DNA from: Pyrofollis japonicus
GTDB taxonomy: Archaea > Thermoproteota > Thermoprotei_A > Sulfolobales > Pyrodictiaceae
DNA length: 64,000 bases
Assembly: GCF_033097485.1 (NCBI RefSeq)
Contig: NZ_AP028634.1
Coordinates: 558,001-622,000, forward strand
Reading direction: 5' to 3'
Shown: positions 14,307-58,396 of the stretch, piece by piece
Layout: each line of letters opens with the position of its first letter
How positions within the stretch are numbered: position 1 is the first letter of the stretch
Made by a program: the position numbers and the translations under genes
Notes under the pieces: model-generated
What the model was told of the DNA's origin: nothing
Database searches by the model: none
The model's input: only the letters and a program-made list of their open reading frames with translations

Positions 14307-14932
14307 CTTACAATTCTCTTTTGAGTTTAGCTTTATTAGCGGGAAGTCAACGTTGAAGATGTGGCTACGTCTAATCTTACAATTCTCTTTTGAGTTTAGC
14401 CTCAAAGAGGTGGGGAGAGCGATAGCCTACGTGGCAAGGACTTACAATTCTCTTTTGAGTTATGGCAGGGACTCGAAGACGGTATTCCTGAAGATAGGTG
14501 AACTCTTACAATTCTCTTTTGAGTTATGGAGCCGTTCTAGCTGCTCAAAAAACTTGTTCACTCGTTCTACACTTACAATTCTCTTTTGAGTTATGGTCAA
14601 GATACGCCTAGTTTTACTCGGTGAGGTGCCGGCTTCATGCTTACAATTCTCTTTTGAGTTATGGTTACATATAAACTAGTTCACTTGATGCAGCTGCTTC
14701 AGCCCACTTACAATTCTCTTTTGAGTTATGGAGACGGGCGAGATCAACGACAACACGTTGAGGATACTGACTTACAATTCTCTTTTGAGTTATGGCTGCT
14801 GTGAGGCGCATCCAGCAGTACGCGTTATCAGCGTTCGGCCTTACAATTCTCTTTTGAGTTATGGTTCACAACATCTTTGGATATTGGCCGCTTAGTGCAC
14901 ACGCGTACTTACAATTCTCTTTTGAGTTATGG
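14307..14932 (-). CRISPR. CRISPR array 1: 10 repeats, 9 spacers
   Basis: Repeats of 25 nt start at 14307, 14376, 14441, 14505, 14572, 14640, 14707, 14771, 14840 and 14908. Spacers are 39-44 nt. Read on the minus strand each repeat ends in CTCAAAAGAGAATTGTAAG, so the crRNA 5' handle would be ATTGTAAG, a variant of the crenarchaeal ATTGAAAG handle. The leader is on the right, so transcription runs leftwards. The eight leader-side repeats begin CCAT, while the two oldest (14307, 14376) begin GCTA like array 3. No cas gene is adjacent. The Cas locus is about 39 kb away. Confidence 0.97.
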
Positions 14933-15160
14933 TGGTTTGTTCCCCATTGGGATCCGAAAGAATAGTGCTATGGTGGAAGTATTTATTGGTTGTGGGCTTC
15001 TTGTGCACGTCTTCAAATCCGGGAACATTAGGTCCTCGTTGTAAATGGGACAGGTGCTCATGGATTTGAGAGGAGTCTAAAGAATGTGCTCAAGGATCAT
15101 CGCGGAACTTGAAAGAAAGTGTGCCCAAGGGAACCACAAGAGGAATTTAAAGGTTAAGAA
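14933..15160 (-). promoter_or_regulatory. Leader of CRISPR array 1
   Basis: The first 25 nt outside the array (TGTTCCCCATTGGGATCCGAA region) match the leaders of arrays 2 and 3, keeping the TCCC/GGGA inverted arms with a changed loop. TATTTAT at 14980-14986 (ATAAATA on the minus strand) lies 48 nt from the repeat, exactly as in the other two leaders. The central part has diverged, and AGGAATTTAAAG (15141-15152) recurs as in the other leaders. The rest up to 15295 holds no gene. Confidence 0.8.
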
Positions 15161-52827: not shown

Positions 52828-53265
52828 GTGACAGGGAAGAGGAGGAGGCGCTGCAAATACTACGTCAATACTAATTTTATCGTGGATCTAATGCGTAGCA
52901 ATGCTGCTGCCGTGGGTTTTGCTAAGAGGCGTCGGGGCGTAATGTGCTCATCGTCTCTCGTTGTCGCGGAGTTCCGGGAGATCGGGCGCAGCTCTGCCGC
53001 TAGGAGAGCTATGGCGGAGCACGGTGTCCGCCTAGTTAAGCTTAGGCGCCCTACTCTTCGGCGGCTCGCGAAGCGCGTTATCCTCGAGCATCCTGGGCTC
53101 TCAGTCAACTCTTTCCTAGATTATCTCCACGTCTACGCGGCTAGGCTGATGGGCGTGGAGTACTTTGTTACGAGCGACCGGGCTGCGTGCAATCGGGCTA
53201 TTAGGGCGGGTCTTTGCTGTATTAATTACCGGAGCGGTGAGGAAAGGTGCCCCTCAAGCCGGTGA
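52828..53265 (+). CDS. PIN-like domain protein with Asn at the first acidic position
   Basis: 145 aa. YVNTNFIVDLMRSN corresponds to the PIN start (usually D-T-N/S), but the first Asp is Asn, while a second Asp is present. SSSLVVAEFREIG supplies the Glu and SFLDYLHVYAARLMGVEYFVTSDRA the C-terminal Asp residues. The N-terminal KRRRRCK is strongly basic. It may be a weakly active or non-nuclease PIN. It overlaps the next, 59-aa gene by 19 nt. Confidence 0.72.
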   Translation: MTGKRRRRCKYYVNTNFIVDLMRSNAAAVGFAKRRRGVMCSSSLVVAEFREIGRSSAARRAMAEHGVRLVKLRRPTLRRLAKRVILEHPGLSVNSFLDYLHVYAARLMGVEYFVTSDRAACNRAIRAGLCCINYRSGEERCPSSR

Positions 53266-53426
53266 GGATTGCTAGGGAGAGGATGAAGCCGATAATAGTT
53301 AAGGCTATACGAGTATACAAAGAGAAGAGGGATGAGAGAGCCCTAGACGTCCTCGCAAGGTACCTGCTAGGCGAGATCAGCCGGGAAGAGGCGCTGGAGA
53401 AGCTTAGAAGGCTCGAAGCCCGGTGA
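53247..53426 (+). CDS. 59-aa basic helical protein, possible partner of the PIN gene
   Basis: GTG start after GAGGAAAG, inside the end of the PIN gene, and TGA overlapping the GTG of the following gene. The peptide MPLKPVRIARERMKPI... continues KAIRVYKEKRDERALDVLARYLLGEISREEALEKLRRLEAR, two charged helices with coiled-coil periodicity. The head-to-tail overlaps on both sides imply a cotranslated trio. Likely an antitoxin or regulatory partner. No family recognised. Confidence 0.6.
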   Translation: MPLKPVRIARERMKPIIVKAIRVYKEKRDERALDVLARYLLGEISREEALEKLRRLEAR

Positions 53427-53773
53427 TAGGCTCCTTGGCTTCTTCTTGGCTTCCTTGGAGCGTCATGGTTTTTGGCATGTTTCTTGTCTGGGGTCTTGTC
53501 TATTCAAGAACGGAGAGCATTCGCAGGGCCACGATGGTAGCGCTTATTGTTGGTAAGAGCTTCACGGTTGTCTATAAGCTGGCTGGCTTGGACCGCACTG
53601 TCTTGACTCTTTACCTTGTCAATCGCTATGGCTACGTGAGGGAGATACGTATAACGATGGTCATGGTTCTCTTGCTCGCGTTTCTCGCGAGCCTCTTGGC
53701 GGCTCTCTACTGGCCCGTGGTGTCGAGGTATCTTCCCCGCGAGGTGCGCGAGGCCCTCGAGGCCGAGCAGTAG
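53423..53773 (+). CDS. Small membrane protein downstream of the PIN operon
   Basis: 116 aa from GTG that overlaps the stop codon of the 59-aa gene. Hydrophobic helices at about 7-27 and 77-100, with a moderately hydrophobic stretch between, and a C-terminal acidic/basic tail. It ends 160 bp before CRISPR array 2. Unknown family. Confidence 0.55.
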   Translation: MIGSLASSWLPWSVMVFGMFLVWGLVYSRTESIRRATMVALIVGKSFTVVYKLAGLDRTVLTLYLVNRYGYVREIRITMVMVLLLAFLASLLAALYWPVVSRYLPREVREALEAEQ

Positions 53774-53779
53774 GCTGGC

Positions 53780-53933
53780 TTATCACGAAGACCCCGCTTA
53801 CTAGTACCGAGTCGTAGTTCTTCCTTATCCCTCCCAGGGCCTGGGGCTTATCCACGTCAACCAGAACCGTTATGGATAGGATCTTATTCCTATGCTTGCG
53901 GAGGAACCGTATAGCCTCTCTCACGTCCCAAAA
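53780..53933 (-). pseudogene. Coding-like fragment abutting CRISPR array 2
   Basis: The minus-strand stretch read in one frame gives VREAIRFLRKHRNKILSITV and then DVDKPQALGGIRKNYDSV..., which has natural amphipathic helix and strand pattern, but it has no stop codon until deep inside the antisense of the neighbouring membrane gene and is cut at its 5' side by the array. It may be the remnant of a gene split by the array. The open frame runs on antisense through the membrane gene and is not counted here. Confidence 0.3.
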
Positions 53934-54868
53934 CTTACAATTCTCTTTTGAGTTAGACCATGAGCTGGTAGCGAAGGAGGAGGAAGTGGAAGAGCTTTGG
54001 GCTTACAATTCTCTTTTGAGTTAGACCGAGCCCTGTTTCTAGGAGCCAGTTTACTAGGTCCTTCTGGGTCTCTTACAATTCTCTTTTGAGTTAGACTCTA
54101 TGAAGTAGCTTCCAGATACCGTGTAGCTTGCCCTCCCTTACAATTCTCTTTTGAGTTAGACTGGGGTGCCAGTAGCTGAGCCGCATGCTCCACATGGTTG
54201 GGGTCCCGTCCCTTCTGCTTACAATTCTCTTTTGAGTTAGACTGGGCATAACGTGGCGAAGCATGGAGTCTATGAATGTATTGACCACTTACAATTCTCT
54301 TTTGAGTTAGACGAGTACCGTGACCTTGGCGGAGCCATAGGTCATTGACAGTGCTAGCTTACAATTCTCTTTTGAGTTAGACTCACGCCTTCACCTCATT
54401 AACTCCATCTTTATTGCGAGCTGTTTGCTTACAATTCTCTTTTGAGTTAGACCCCGGCGCTAGCGTGAAGCGGCAACACGGCTAGCAGTAGCAGCACTAC
54501 TTACAATTCTCTTTTGAGTTAGACAGCTGCACGAGAGACTTGAGTCAGAGTTCCACAATATCGCTCTTACAATTCTCTTTTGAGTTAGACTCCCTTAGCT
54601 TGATGTACTCGCCAGCCTCGTAGGCCAGGAAGCTCACTTACAATTCTCTTTTGAGTTAGACCAGGGGCCAGGGCCGAGGAAGCAGAGCACTTGGTAAGGG
54701 TTGCAACTTACAATTCTCTTTTGAGTTAGACTGCTCAAAGAGAACATGGAGCTGCGGAGCCGCTACGTGAACCTCGCTTACAATTCTCTTTTGAGTTAGA
54801 CCTCGGTCAGCTACCGTCAGCACTACTTGGCATTGGGCAGCGACTTACAATTCTCTTTTGAGTTAGAC
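53934..54868 (-). CRISPR. CRISPR array 2: 14 repeats, 13 spacers
   Basis: Repeats start at 53934, 54002, 54072, 54137, 54218, 54288, 54358, 54428, 54500, 54566, 54637, 54707, 54777 and 54844. Spacers are 40-47 nt, except one of 56 nt (54162-54217). Each repeat read on the minus strand begins GTCT and ends CTCAAAAGAGAATTGTAAG. The leader is on the right, directly before cas2. Several spacers are open in one frame and look derived from coding sequence. Confidence 0.98.
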
Positions 54869-55112
54869 TGGTTTGTTCCCTTTTGGGATCCGAATAGTCT
54901 CTACTATCGTCCTGGTATTTATCTCCTTTGGAACAGTGTTGGCTTATAAGTTGTTAATGAATCATAATTGTTGGTGATCTTTCTTCCTATTCTACGCGAT
55001 AATGTTCTGATGGAAATGTATGGGTTTGAAACATTGTTCCCAAGAAGCCTTACAACTCCACCAAAGACAGGTTCCAATGAGAATTCAATAAGGAATTTAA
55101 AGATAAAGAGGG
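54869..55112 (-). promoter_or_regulatory. Leader of CRISPR array 2
   Basis: Next to the array: the inverted repeat TCCC-TTTT-GGGA (54877-54888), then TATTTAT at 54916-54922 (minus-strand ATAAATA, 48 nt from the last repeat) as the pre-crRNA TATA. A 73-bp block, 55010-55082, is identical but for one base to that of array 3 at the same distance. AGGAATTTAAAG at 55091-55102 ends the conserved region. No gene overlaps; cas2 begins about 115 bp further on. Confidence 0.85.
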
Positions 55113-55229
55113 TTGGGGCAAATACACAATGCGAGAAAATGGTTATGTTTTCTGCTTTTATTTAGTTTTGCTTGTGTTTTATGGTGGGATAAGGCTATAT
55201 GTTTCCTGGTAATACCTTTCTTAGTGGTG

Positions 55230-55526
55230 GTGTTTCTGCCGTATGTTGTTGTATTTTATGATATTAGCGATGATAGGCGTCGCTTCAAGGTGGCTAAGTT
55301 GTTGGAGTCGTTTGGGCTTGTAAGGGTTCAGCGCAGCGTTTTCATTGGTCGTGGCGGGTTTACGAAGGCGAAGGAGGTTGTTCGTGCTGCTCTCCGGTTA
55401 GTGGATAGGGGGAAGGATAGTGTGGCCGCTGTTGTTGTTCCCGAGGACTATGCTAGGAGGATATTGGTCGCGGGGCGCCTTATGAATAGTCCTGAGAAGG
55501 CTGAGGGCGTGGTTGTTGTCGTCTAG
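55230..55526 (+). CDS. cas2: CRISPR adaptation protein Cas2
   Basis: About 98 aa. The reading frame extends to 55113, but homology begins at [28 protein letters not shown]; three consecutive GTG codons (55224-55232) are the likely starts. The Asp in FYDISDD and the ferredoxin-like fold with [11 protein letters not shown] define Cas2. It supports spacer integration together with Cas1, which is absent from this window. It overlaps cas4 by 14 nt and lies directly behind the array 2 leader. Confidence 0.93.
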
Positions 55527-56121
55527 CCTTGTCGAAGACGTTTTGATCCCTATAGGGCTTGTTAAGGAGTATTATTGGTGCCCTATGGAGGCTTATTTCA
55601 AGCTTATGGCTTGGCGCGAGGCGCCTACGGAGAGTATGATGGCTGGTGCTGAGATTGTTCCGCGTGACCGTATAGTAGAGCTGCTGGAGGAGAGGCACAG
55701 AGTCCACGAGCTACTGTGGGAGCACCCGGTTGTTTCACGTAGGCTTAGACTTGGTGGACGCGTTGACCTCGTAGCTATAACCGTTAACGATGCCGTTGTT
55801 GTGGTTGAGGCTAAGCTCTCGAAGACTAGTAGAAGGGCTCTCCGGGGGAGAGATAAGAGGCTACTAATACAGCTGGCAGCCTATGCTATCGCCGCCGAGG
55901 AGGCGCTCCGCCTTCCCTTGGAGGCCGCCTATGTCTATAGCACGGAAGTTGATAAGCTAATTGAGGCCAAGATTACGCCGCTTCTCCGCCGCCTAGTAGA
56001 GCACGCAGCCAAAGAGCTTAGAAGAATGCTTCTCGAAGCTAAGCCGCCGGAAACAGTTAGAACTAATAGAAGGCGTTGCAGGGTCTGCAGCTATCGCCAC
56101 GTATGCCCCTTTGCGCGCTAA
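55513..56121 (+). CDS. cas4: CRISPR-associated RecB-like exonuclease Cas4
   Basis: 202 aa from [13 protein letters not shown] supplies the first cluster cysteine and [13 protein letters not shown] the last three, for a [4Fe-4S] cluster. The nuclease core has [24 protein letters not shown] and QLAAYAIAA (RecB motifs II, III and QxxxY). Cas4 trims prespacers and selects PAM ends during adaptation. It is transcribed with cas2 and its stop overlaps the end of csa3 on the other strand by 4 nt. Confidence 0.93.
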
Positions 56122-56825
56122 CCGAGAACGTGGTGCAAGGAAGCAGCCAGGAAGGCACGCTCGCTGGGATAGTAGCGGCCCTTCTCCTCATCGCGTACAG
56201 CTATCCCTTTCTCCGAGAGGGCGCTGAGCCTCCTATACACCGTAGACTTGGCTACGCCGAGGAGCCTAGCGGCCTCACTCACTCCCAGCCCAGTATCCAT
56301 CCTCTCAATGATTAGCGCTACAAGCCTCCTATCAAGAACATCTAGCTCCGGCACACGGAGATCGGCCAACAGCTCCTCAACGAGGGCGTTGAAACCCTCC
56401 CCCTCTACCCTAACGGTTATCTTCTTAGCATATTCTTCTGGGAGCATACTCAGCAAAATATAGAGGCCTAAGACTAGTAGGCGCGGACCTCCAGAGAGAA
56501 GCACTAGTAACTCACCTTGCTCAAGCGCCACGCGAATAAAGCCTCCAATCTTCCTAGCCAAGTTGTAAACCAGCCTAGAGAGCGACTCACCCCGATAAGG
56601 CACCGATACGAGCTCGCTCTCCACCCTTAGGCTGGAGGCAAAGACTCGTAGCTGGCTGAAAGCCCTCTCGACACGGCTCCACGCATCACTACCAGTATCA
56701 AGTGCCACAGCCACAACCTTGCATGGCTTATGATCGCTTATCGCCCTTATAGCGAACCTCTCGTCAAACCCGAAACTGGCTAGAAGAGTCTTACCACAAG
56801 TCCTCAAATGCATAAGGTAGCTCAT
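56118..56825 (-). CDS. csa3: CARF-HTH transcriptional regulator Csa3
   Basis: 235 aa. The N-terminal CARF-like half (about 1-140) includes VVAVALDTGSDAW, VSVPYRGESLSRLVYNLARK and the GELLVLLSGGPRLLV loop, which would bind cyclic oligoadenylate. The C-terminal winged helix is RLVALIIERMDTGLGVSEAARLLGVAKSTVYRRLSAL. Csa3 proteins control adaptation and interference operons in type I-A systems. It faces away from the csa5 operon with two inverted repeats between them. Confidence 0.92.
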   Translation of the reverse strand: MSYLMHLRTCGKTLLASFGFDERFAIRAISDHKPCKVVAVALDTGSDAWSRVERAFSQLRVFASSLRVESELVSVPYRGESLSRLVYNLARKIGGFIRVALEQGELLVLLSGGPRLLVLGLYILLSMLPEEYAKKITVRVEGEGFNALVEELLADLRVPELDVLDRRLVALIIERMDTGLGVSEAARLLGVAKSTVYRRLSALSEKGIAVRDEEKGRYYPSERAFLAASLHHVLG

Positions 56826-56855
56826 CTCCGAGGGACGCTAGGTACTTAGAGATTC

Positions 56856-56878
56856 AAGCAGAGCCTTGAGCTCTGCTT
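56856..56878. promoter_or_regulatory. Inverted repeat near the csa3 start (candidate operator)
   Basis: AAGCAGAGC-cttga-GCTCTGCTT is a perfect 9-bp inverted repeat 31 bp upstream of the csa3 ATG. It differs in sequence from the second one (56886-56907). It could be the autoregulatory site of Csa3 or of another repressor. Confidence 0.55.
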
Positions 56879-56885
56879 TGAGCAG

Positions 56886-56907
56886 GTGTTCCGCAGAGGT
56901 GGAACAC
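56886..56907. promoter_or_regulatory. Inverted repeat near the csa5 promoter (candidate operator)
   Basis: GTGTTCC-gcagaggt-GGAACAC, a perfect 7-bp inverted repeat, ends 13 bp before the TATA-like CATAAATATT of the csa5 operon. A dimeric winged-helix protein such as Csa3 bound here would be placed to contact or block the promoter. Confidence 0.6.
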
Positions 56908-56920
56908 AATACTGGGAACT

Positions 56921-56930
56921 CATAAATATT
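56921..56930 (+). promoter_or_regulatory. TATA element of the type I-A interference operon
   Basis: CATAAATATT ends 34 nt before the TTG of csa5 and 13 bp after the second inverted repeat. Transcription would begin near 56953. Confidence 0.55.
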
Positions 56931-56964
56931 ATTCCATTTGCTCTATATTGGCGGAGTAGACGCC

Positions 56965-57357
56965 TTGCCTACTCAACAAGCTCAGATCCTCCGACCCATA
57001 TGGCTTCCCGAGCTGCTAGCATACTTCGCCGAAACAAAGCAGTTCGGCGTTCTAGATCGCATAGCTAACGCGCTCGGCCCTGATCAAGCGCTCGCAGCCC
57101 TCTACGATGCTCTCAGAATATATCGCAGCAACTGCGTTAAGGAAGAGCCCGAGGAGAAGTGCCCACGCGTAAGGACGAAAGATGGCCAGACAATACCCCC
57201 GAAGGAGCTATTGGTAAGAGCTGAGTACGAGGTAAGCAAGCTGGCCGAGCTCCTCCTGGATCCAGCTAGGAGCGAGGAGGGACTACGAATAGCCCGAGCA
57301 GCAGCGCTCCTAGCCCTCGGGAAACACCATGGGACAGTTATGGAGGGAGGTGGGTAA
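56965..57357 (+). CDS. csa5: Type I-A Cascade small subunit Csa5 (Cas11)
   Basis: 130 aa from TTG 56965, 8 nt after GGCGGAG. A longer start at 56938 precedes the ribosome site. The mostly helical protein (LPELLAYFAETKQFGVLDRIANALG, ALAALYDALRIYRSN) fits the Csa5 family in length and position before cas7. In the complex it stabilises the R-loop. Cotranslated with cas7 only loosely: 4 nt separate its stop from the preferred cas7 start. Confidence 0.87.
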   Translation: MPTQQAQILRPIWLPELLAYFAETKQFGVLDRIANALGPDQALAALYDALRIYRSNCVKEEPEEKCPRVRTKDGQTIPPKELLVRAEYEVSKLAELLLDPARSEEGLRIARAAALLALGKHHGTVMEGGG

Positions 57358-57361
57358 GAAC

Positions 57362-58396
57362 ATGCCCCTATTCTTCTCCCTATCGGCTCGCATACTGGTT
57401 AACCTGGAAGCATTAAACATGGCTGAAAGCGTAGGCAACGTAGTACGTCATCGACGCGCACCAGTAATACTTCGGAGGAGTGATGGCTTCGCACTACGCT
57501 ATGTACCGGTCATAAGTGGTGAGAGCCTGGCCCACCACTATCAGCGCCTCTTAGCAGACATAGCGGCTTCTCGCGGCATACCGGTCTGCCCTGCCTGTAA
57601 GCAAGGTGTCTTCCTCAAACATGCGGACAGCAACGTGTTCAAAAAGTACGATGGAATAGATAAGCCGAAGAACGTGTTCAAAAACGCGGCTGAGGTCGAG
57701 AAATACGTTGTAGAGAACTGCGTAGTTGAAGACGTAGGCGGCTTCCTCTTCACAGACATGACTGTTAAGCGTACCTCCCGGTTCCGCGTCGGCTACATGA
57801 TACCAGCACTAGACGCGCTGGAAACCGGGGCAGCGGCTACCGAGGCACAGTTCCACGTCAGGTACTCACCAGGAGCCAAGGGCGGCGAACAAGCAATATA
57901 CTATGTCGAGGTCGGCAGCGCTGCATATGTCTTCACCTACGCGCTAGACGCCTCCGCTGTAGGAGCCTATAGCATGGAGAACGAGGGCGCCCCGCAAGAT
58001 AACCCGTATATCCTTGGCCTCGACGAGAGGAGGAAGAGAGTTGAGGCAGCACTAGATGCGCTAGCAGCACTACTCGGAGGAATGACGTGGGGGGCCAAGA
58101 CCACAAGGTTCCAGCCACACTGGAAGATACTCAGCCTAGTAGTAGCAGTAACAGAGCCAATACCATTCAACGTCTCGCCCGGGCACGATAAGGAGTACCT
58201 AGCGGAAACAGTAGCGAGGGCCTGCAAGCTATCAAACATGATAAAAGAGTTCGCAGCCAGCATCCACTACTACGACGGCGAAGGACTCCGAGAACCCAAG
58301 AAATGCGCCAGCAACACCGTAGGCTCCAGTACGCACGAAAGCTACCTCGACGCCATAGAAGCAGCAAAGAAGGAGATACTGGAGAAGCTAGCCTAA
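57362..58396 (+). CDS. cas7: Type I-A Cascade backbone Cas7 (Csa2)
   Basis: 344 aa from ATG 57362, 11-12 nt after GGAGGTG. The start at 57329 lies before that site. LFFSLSARILVNLEALNMAESVGNVVRHRRAPV, YVPVISGESLAHHYQR and the CPACKQG segment match Csa2/DevR-type Cas7. Multiple copies coat the crRNA. Order csa5-cas7-cas5 is standard for type I-A. Confidence 0.94.
   Translation: MPLFFSLSARILVNLEALNMAESVGNVVRHRRAPVILRRSDGFALRYVPVISGESLAHHYQRLLADIAASRGIPVCPACKQGVFLKHADSNVFKKYDGIDKPKNVFKNAAEVEKYVVENCVVEDVGGFLFTDMTVKRTSRFRVGYMIPALDALETGAAATEAQFHVRYSPGAKGGEQAIYYVEVGSAAYVFTYALDASAVGAYSMENEGAPQDNPYILGLDERRKRVEAALDALAALLGGMTWGAKTTRFQPHWKILSLVVAVTEPIPFNVSPGHDKEYLAETVARACKLSNMIKEFAASIHYYDGEGLREPKKCASNTVGSSTHESYLDAIEAAKKEILEKLA

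Follow-up and report, generated by a model that had tools for sequence, protein, structure and literature searches.

A probable Csa3 operator and an unlike second palindrome between csa3 and the csa5 interference operon of Pyrofollis japonicus

We analyzed a 64,000-nucleotide stretch of the Pyrofollis japonicus genome (hereafter the window), in which csa3, encoding a regulator with a CARF domain and a winged HTH, lies divergent from csa5, the first gene of a type I-A interference operon that continues with csa2, a cas5a-like gene, cas3' and cas3'' (Table 1). The window Csa3 scores 53.7-54.2 bits against TIGR01884, under the curated cut-off of 60.2, and carries the CARF motifs GFDE and GGPR; its nearest solved sequences are the PDB Csa3 entries, which it matches weakly (E=0.017-0.026). 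No other protein of the genome matches TIGR01884 over its full length, and the csa3 gene adjoins the region studied here. The csa3 reading frame opens at ATG 56825, and the gene probably starts at ATG 56813, where we placed it because this codon aligns with the csa3 start of the relative L128. The csa5 reading frame opens at TTG 56938; alignment and context suggest that the gene probably starts at TTG 56965.

Table 1. Features of the csa3-csa5 locus and of the CRISPR arrays in and around the window
Feature	Position	Strand	Remarks
csa3	56118..56813	minus	CARF + winged HTH regulator; TIGR01884; probable start
csa3 TATA-like candidate TCTAAGTA	56843..56850	minus	consensus match only; weak, not the best minus-strand score
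IR1	56856..56878		perfect palindrome AAGCAGAGC-CTTGA-GCTCTGCTT; arms 56856-56864/56870-56878, 9 nt each, gap 5 nt; csa3-proximal
IR2	56886..56907		perfect dyad GTGTTCC-GCAGAGGT-GGAACAC (N8); arms 56886-56892/56901-56907, 7 nt each, gap 8 nt; csa5 promoter side
Third GGAAC half-site GGGAACTC	56914..56921	plus	abuts the csa5 TATA element; 14 bp from the right half of IR2
csa5 TATA-like element CATAAATA	56921..56928	plus	consensus match only
csa5	56965..57357	plus	heads the type I-A interference operon; TIGR01878, 26 bits, under curated cut-off; probable start
GGAACAG half-site	54930..54936		by leader TATA of the 53.9-kb array; on the minus strand CTGTTCC-AAAGGAG-ATAAATA
Leader element GTTCCCTTTTGGGA	54875..54888		adjoins first repeat of the 53.9-kb array
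CRISPR arrays	53938-54862; 14311-14926; 63933 to past window end		others in G000:C1 629.7-648.4 kb

Two perfect inverted repeats of unlike sequence, IR1 and IR2, lie between the two genes and are separated by 7 bp (56879-56885), with coordinates and arms exactly as the first-pass annotation had given them. The TATA-like element of csa5 begins 13 bp past the end of IR2; its score, the top one on the plus strand, is tied with that of a match at 56845-56852, which points into IR1. The first six nucleotides of the IR2 spacer (56893-56898, GCAGAG) are the same as the core of an IR1 arm (56858-56863), which may be coincidence.

A single perfect inverted repeat of this size is no rarity. The 64-kb window holds 54 entries of perfect inverted repeats with arms of at least 7 bp, and about 8 are listed with arms of at least 9 bp; IR1 by itself is therefore unremarkable; what stands out is that two such repeats occur together at a divergent promoter. 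In dinucleotide shuffles of the 139-bp intergenic region, a single perfect repeat with arms of at least 7 bp arose with P=0.06, one with arms of at least 9 bp with P=0.0034, and two disjoint perfect repeats like IR1 and IR2 with P=0.00015 (20,000 shuffles), all of these values being uncorrected for the fact that the region was picked in a window scan for oddities. The 2.0-Mb genome contains a single copy of IR2 without its outermost base pair (TGTTCC-N8-GGAACA).

The evidence on function centers on IR2. Of 229 genomes in the class, 48 yielded csa5 in a protein search and 59 matched the TIGR01878 family; profile searches using starting alignments located adjacent csa3 genes, yielding 27 divergent and 28 codirectional regions. 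A common dyad, TTYC-N8-GRAA, was first spotted by eye in the divergent regions; in the 25 of them used for the count it is present in 8, against 0.34 expected (0 of 200 shuffles reach this count). Because the pattern was widened after these 25 regions had been viewed, only the Sulfolobaceae set, which was held out, is a clean test: here 10 of the 13 csa5 promoters carry the dyad, against 0.34 expected and a maximum of 3 in 500 shuffles (CTTTCCGCTTATTCGGAAAG in L058 is an example). For TTYC/GRAA dyads, a spacing of 8 is the peak in both sets. A spacing of 9 is found in 6 of the 13 Sulfolobaceae promoters, a count that by eye consists partly of offset matches to the N8 sites and keeps the two together; other codirectional loci carry TTYC-N7-GRAA. 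Dyads counted without regard to motif do not peak at 8 bp in the divergent regions (11 versus 7.8 expected); the signal is therefore the motif and not symmetry alone. The core of IR2, TTCC-N8-GGAA, has the inverted half-sites and the 8-bp spacing of this pattern and lies directly upstream of the csa5 BRE/TATA (the TATA being a consensus match only), whereas IR1 does not fit the pattern. On these sequence comparisons, IR2 is very probably where Csa3 docks, an operator of the TTYC-N8-GRAA type. Elsewhere in the genome, the cmr promoters and, by eye, the csa1-cas1 promoter show no dyad of the IR2 type.

Csa3 proteins were further aligned and the type of their recognition helix tabulated against the type of dyad. 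The TTYC dyad is present at 14 of the 19 loci whose Csa3 has an xTx[WFHL] helix and at 4 of 33 others (Fisher p about 1e-5), and a GTCC-N9-GGAC-like dyad, in a pattern loosened to take in variants, at 7 of 11 loci with an STLY helix and at none of 41 others (Fisher p about 2e-6); both p-values are indicative only and overstated, because the loci are related and the helix classes were defined with the sequences already in view. The helix of the window Csa3, AKSTVYRRLSAL, appears to fall between the classes, as does its presumed half-site GTGTTCC. Other clades show further arrangements. One (L057, L093, L094, L102 and L103) combines a KQ..-type recognition helix with csa5 promoters free of the TTYC dyad, several of which have repeated GGATA-like words by the TATA box. 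Another (L037, L044, L049 and relatives) carries a GTCC-N9-GGAC dyad just behind the csa3 stop, and in several of its members GTCCA stands as a half-site at the BRE/TATA of csa5.

Csa3 as a query found no match in the genome contigs searched, and Cas7 led to one near relative, L128 (JALVYZ010000237.1; Cas7 78% identical), which has the same csa3-csa5 layout and a Csa3 49% identical to that of the window. Conservation of the palindromes, raised by the first-pass annotation, is partial; the loss of both in relatives, which that annotation had named as counting against its reading, does not apply to L128. L128 keeps both IR2 half-sites, GTGTTTC (1014-1020) and, after N18, GGAACGCAATATGCATAACGCTTAA (from 1039; GGAACGC), and also a promoter-side block of 33 bp that aligns gap-free with the window (shuffle P=0.004). 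Within the conserved TATA-side unit a GGAAC-like repeat occurs twice, the second copy lying 14 bp downstream of the other. At 1014-1045 of L128, the half-site spacing of 18 instead of 8 bp amounts to about one extra helical turn. A CAGAG...CTCTG dyad at 975-993 of L128 echoes the IR1 core (P=0.0044), with only 5-bp arms and a 9-nt loop. In G004, whose Csa3 is 45% identical, neither palindrome is present, and the promoter-side half-site block is recognizable, although the intergenic alignment with the window is not significant on its own. At the aligned position of the third half-site, AAC is kept in both L128 and G004.

IR2 can be set beside several published sites. Closest in context is the S. 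islandicus csa5 promoter, which shares with IR2 both the type I-A interference operon and the regulator family: according to papers that cite the primary work, Csa3b binds there, represses and helps Cascade to bind (PMC7480081, citing He et al. 2017; PMC8844856; PMC10013973). The first-pass annotation had stated correctly that Csa3b acts at this promoter. In place of TTTCC the half-site here is GTGTTCC; moreover, csa3 is divergent from csa5, and the unlike palindrome IR1 is present as well; the core and spacing of IR2 match the TTYC-N8-GRAA dyad of Sulfolobaceae csa5 promoters. The second comparison is CAPPa of the Sulfolobales, a Csa3a-associated palindrome, TCCC-N8-GGGA, located 12 bp upstream of BRE/TATA (PMC8699464). 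CAPPa and IR2 both have 4-bp half-sites, an 8-bp gap, a position directly upstream of BRE/TATA and related sequences in CRISPR leaders, but the half-sites differ (TCCC/GGGA versus TTCC/GGAA), IR2 lies at the interference operon, and the csa1-cas1 promoter here, 15 kb away, shows no CAPPa- or IR2-like dyad by eye. In gel shifts, DNA binding by S. solfataricus Csa3a was largely nonspecific (PMC8699464). Csa3a sites are also described at the S. islandicus csa1 and cas1 promoters, where the two cas1 elements are required together (PMC4333418). These resemble the present case in having an imperfect inverted repeat near BRE and TATA, and the cas1 pair is a precedent for paired sites, although its two elements are alike and IR1 and IR2 are not.

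IR2 is thus very probably another example of a known switch type found before the csa5 operon in many heat-loving archaea, with IR1 as an unlike second element beside it. Taking the evidence as a whole, we think it likely that the adjacent Csa3 binds the csa3-csa5 intergenic region, which would control transcription in both directions, with IR2 as the Csa3 operator. A Csa3 dimer would recognize IR2, possibly together with the extra GGAAC half-site abutting the TATA box, and would thereby control how the csa5-csa2-cas5-cas3 operon is started. If Csa3 behaves like Csa3b of Sulfolobus, repression is the more likely default, although a site upstream of BRE would also suit an activator. Cyclic tetra-adenylate (cA4) made by the type III-B system of the genome could, on binding to the CARF domain, lift or readjust this repression; alternatively, release might follow from Cascade leaving the promoter. 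IR1, by the weak csa3 promoter candidate, would be a second operator, for autoregulation by Csa3 or for a partner protein. The first-pass annotation had proposed that a dimeric Csa3 uses both palindromes. For IR2 this is supported by the N8 dyad, the helix covariation and the published N8 palindrome of Csa3a; for IR1, which differs in sequence and has its core kept in one relative, the support is weak. The layout is in keeping with the suggested coupling between Csa3 synthesis and expression of Cascade, because IR1 adjoins the weak csa3 TATA candidate and IR2 lies just upstream of the csa5 promoter.

IR1 is probably a csa3-side operator, our leading guess among several readings of its sequence. 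Among the 20 genomes searched in the family, no other match to IR1 with up to two mismatches was found; matches with three mismatches were slightly above a reversed-pattern control, and none lay at a csa3 locus other than that of the window. Nor does IR1 fit any TTYC/GRAA or GTCC/GGAC arrangement when it is read as a Csa3 site in a different register.

A different assignment, which we entertain tentatively, keeps IR2 as the Csa3 operator and takes IR1 for the site of a second transcription factor or for a hairpin that tunes csa3 translation from within a long 5' leader RNA. IR1 indeed has no half-site in common with IR2 or with the TTYC and GTCC operators, although its core recurs in L128 merely as the 5-bp-arm dyad. 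The csa3-sense RNA of 56843-56898 folds at -19.8 kcal/mol (z=-2.8; z=-3.1 for a 36-nt core), and the weakness of the csa3 TATA candidate means that transcription could start further upstream. However, IR2 folds as RNA equally strikingly (z=-3.8), so that the good folding of IR1 only restates the palindrome; Rfam gives no match at E<=1 in 53000-58000; and if TCTAAGTA is the csa3 TATA box, IR1 lies upstream of the transcription start and is never in the csa3 transcript. That IR1 is a chance palindrome and IR2 alone is functional strikes us as unlikely. Such a reading would accommodate the abundance of 9-bp-arm repeats in the window, the absence of IR1 from the other family genomes, its departure from the operator type and the mere 5-bp arms of the L128 match, but it sits poorly with the shuffle values for arms of at least 9 bp and for the pair, and with the recurrence of the same core in L128. 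It is very improbable that the palindromes are a Cascade landing site or a remnant or mimic of the CRISPR repeat, with autorepression via crRNA-like pairing instead of Csa3: Cascade is present with Csa3b at the Sulfolobus csa5 promoter (PMC8844856, PMC10013973), CTCAAAG..AGAG by IR1 looks by eye vaguely like the repeat core CTCAAAAGAG, and a spacer holds the IR1 arm AAGCAGAGC at 54680-54688, followed by ACTTGG (CTTGA in IR1), but the likeness to the repeat requires a 2-nt gap, the spacer match is mid-spacer without a seed and chance would give such a 9-mer about this often, and the Csa3 dyad code accounts for the half-site pattern of IR2.

The half-site of the proposed Csa3 operator IR2 recurs in the CRISPR leaders of the same genome. 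Six arrays of one repeat family span about 76 kb of the 94 kb examined (the window and 30 kb beyond), and the cas loci are split among them, with cas2-cas4 at 55.1-56.1 kb and csa1-cas1 together with a type III-B operon (Cmr1, Cmr4, Cmr5, a weak Cmr3 match and a Cas10-like palm domain) about 6-22 kb past the window end. Each of the six leaders contains 2-4 GTTCC/GGAAC sites, against 0.59 expected per 330 bp, and since the leaders are copies of one another they count as one observation. In three of them, GTGTTCC stands immediately before the leader TATA (GTGTTCCGAAGAAGATAAATAC or close). Given this excess and the one Csa3 of the genome, Cascade and the arrays may share a single regulator. Separately, GGATCCCAAAAGGGAACA or a close variant of it closes each of the six leaders at the first repeat (54869-54888, 14931-14955 and four further arrays, one of them cut by the window end and three beyond it). 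This element, a TCCC-N4-GGGA dyad resembling the repeat core, may be a repeat that has degenerated, or adaptation proteins or Csa3 may dock there.

A bolder proposal, which we offer as speculative and rather doubtful, is that the single Csa3 does the work of both Csa3a and Csa3b of Sulfolobus, reading GTTCC as the dyad IR2 at the Cascade promoter and as single sites by the leader TATA. IR1 would then bring in another partner, through which csa3 expression is linked to Cascade. On a broader scale, the recognition helices of Csa3 and the csa5 operators would have co-diverged across these archaea in a readable code of TTYC, GTCC and GTGTTCC types.

As far as we found in the literature, experimentally known Csa3 DNA sites come from Sulfolobus and its close kin only, and specific binding is disputed. 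The conserved N8 dyad before csa5 in several families, with a half-site that tracks the recognition helix, offers a testable operator code outside Sulfolobus, and the same half-site is found at the CRISPR leaders in a genome with one Csa3. It is through Csa3 that the second messengers of type III systems may reset type I CRISPR immunity in archaea.
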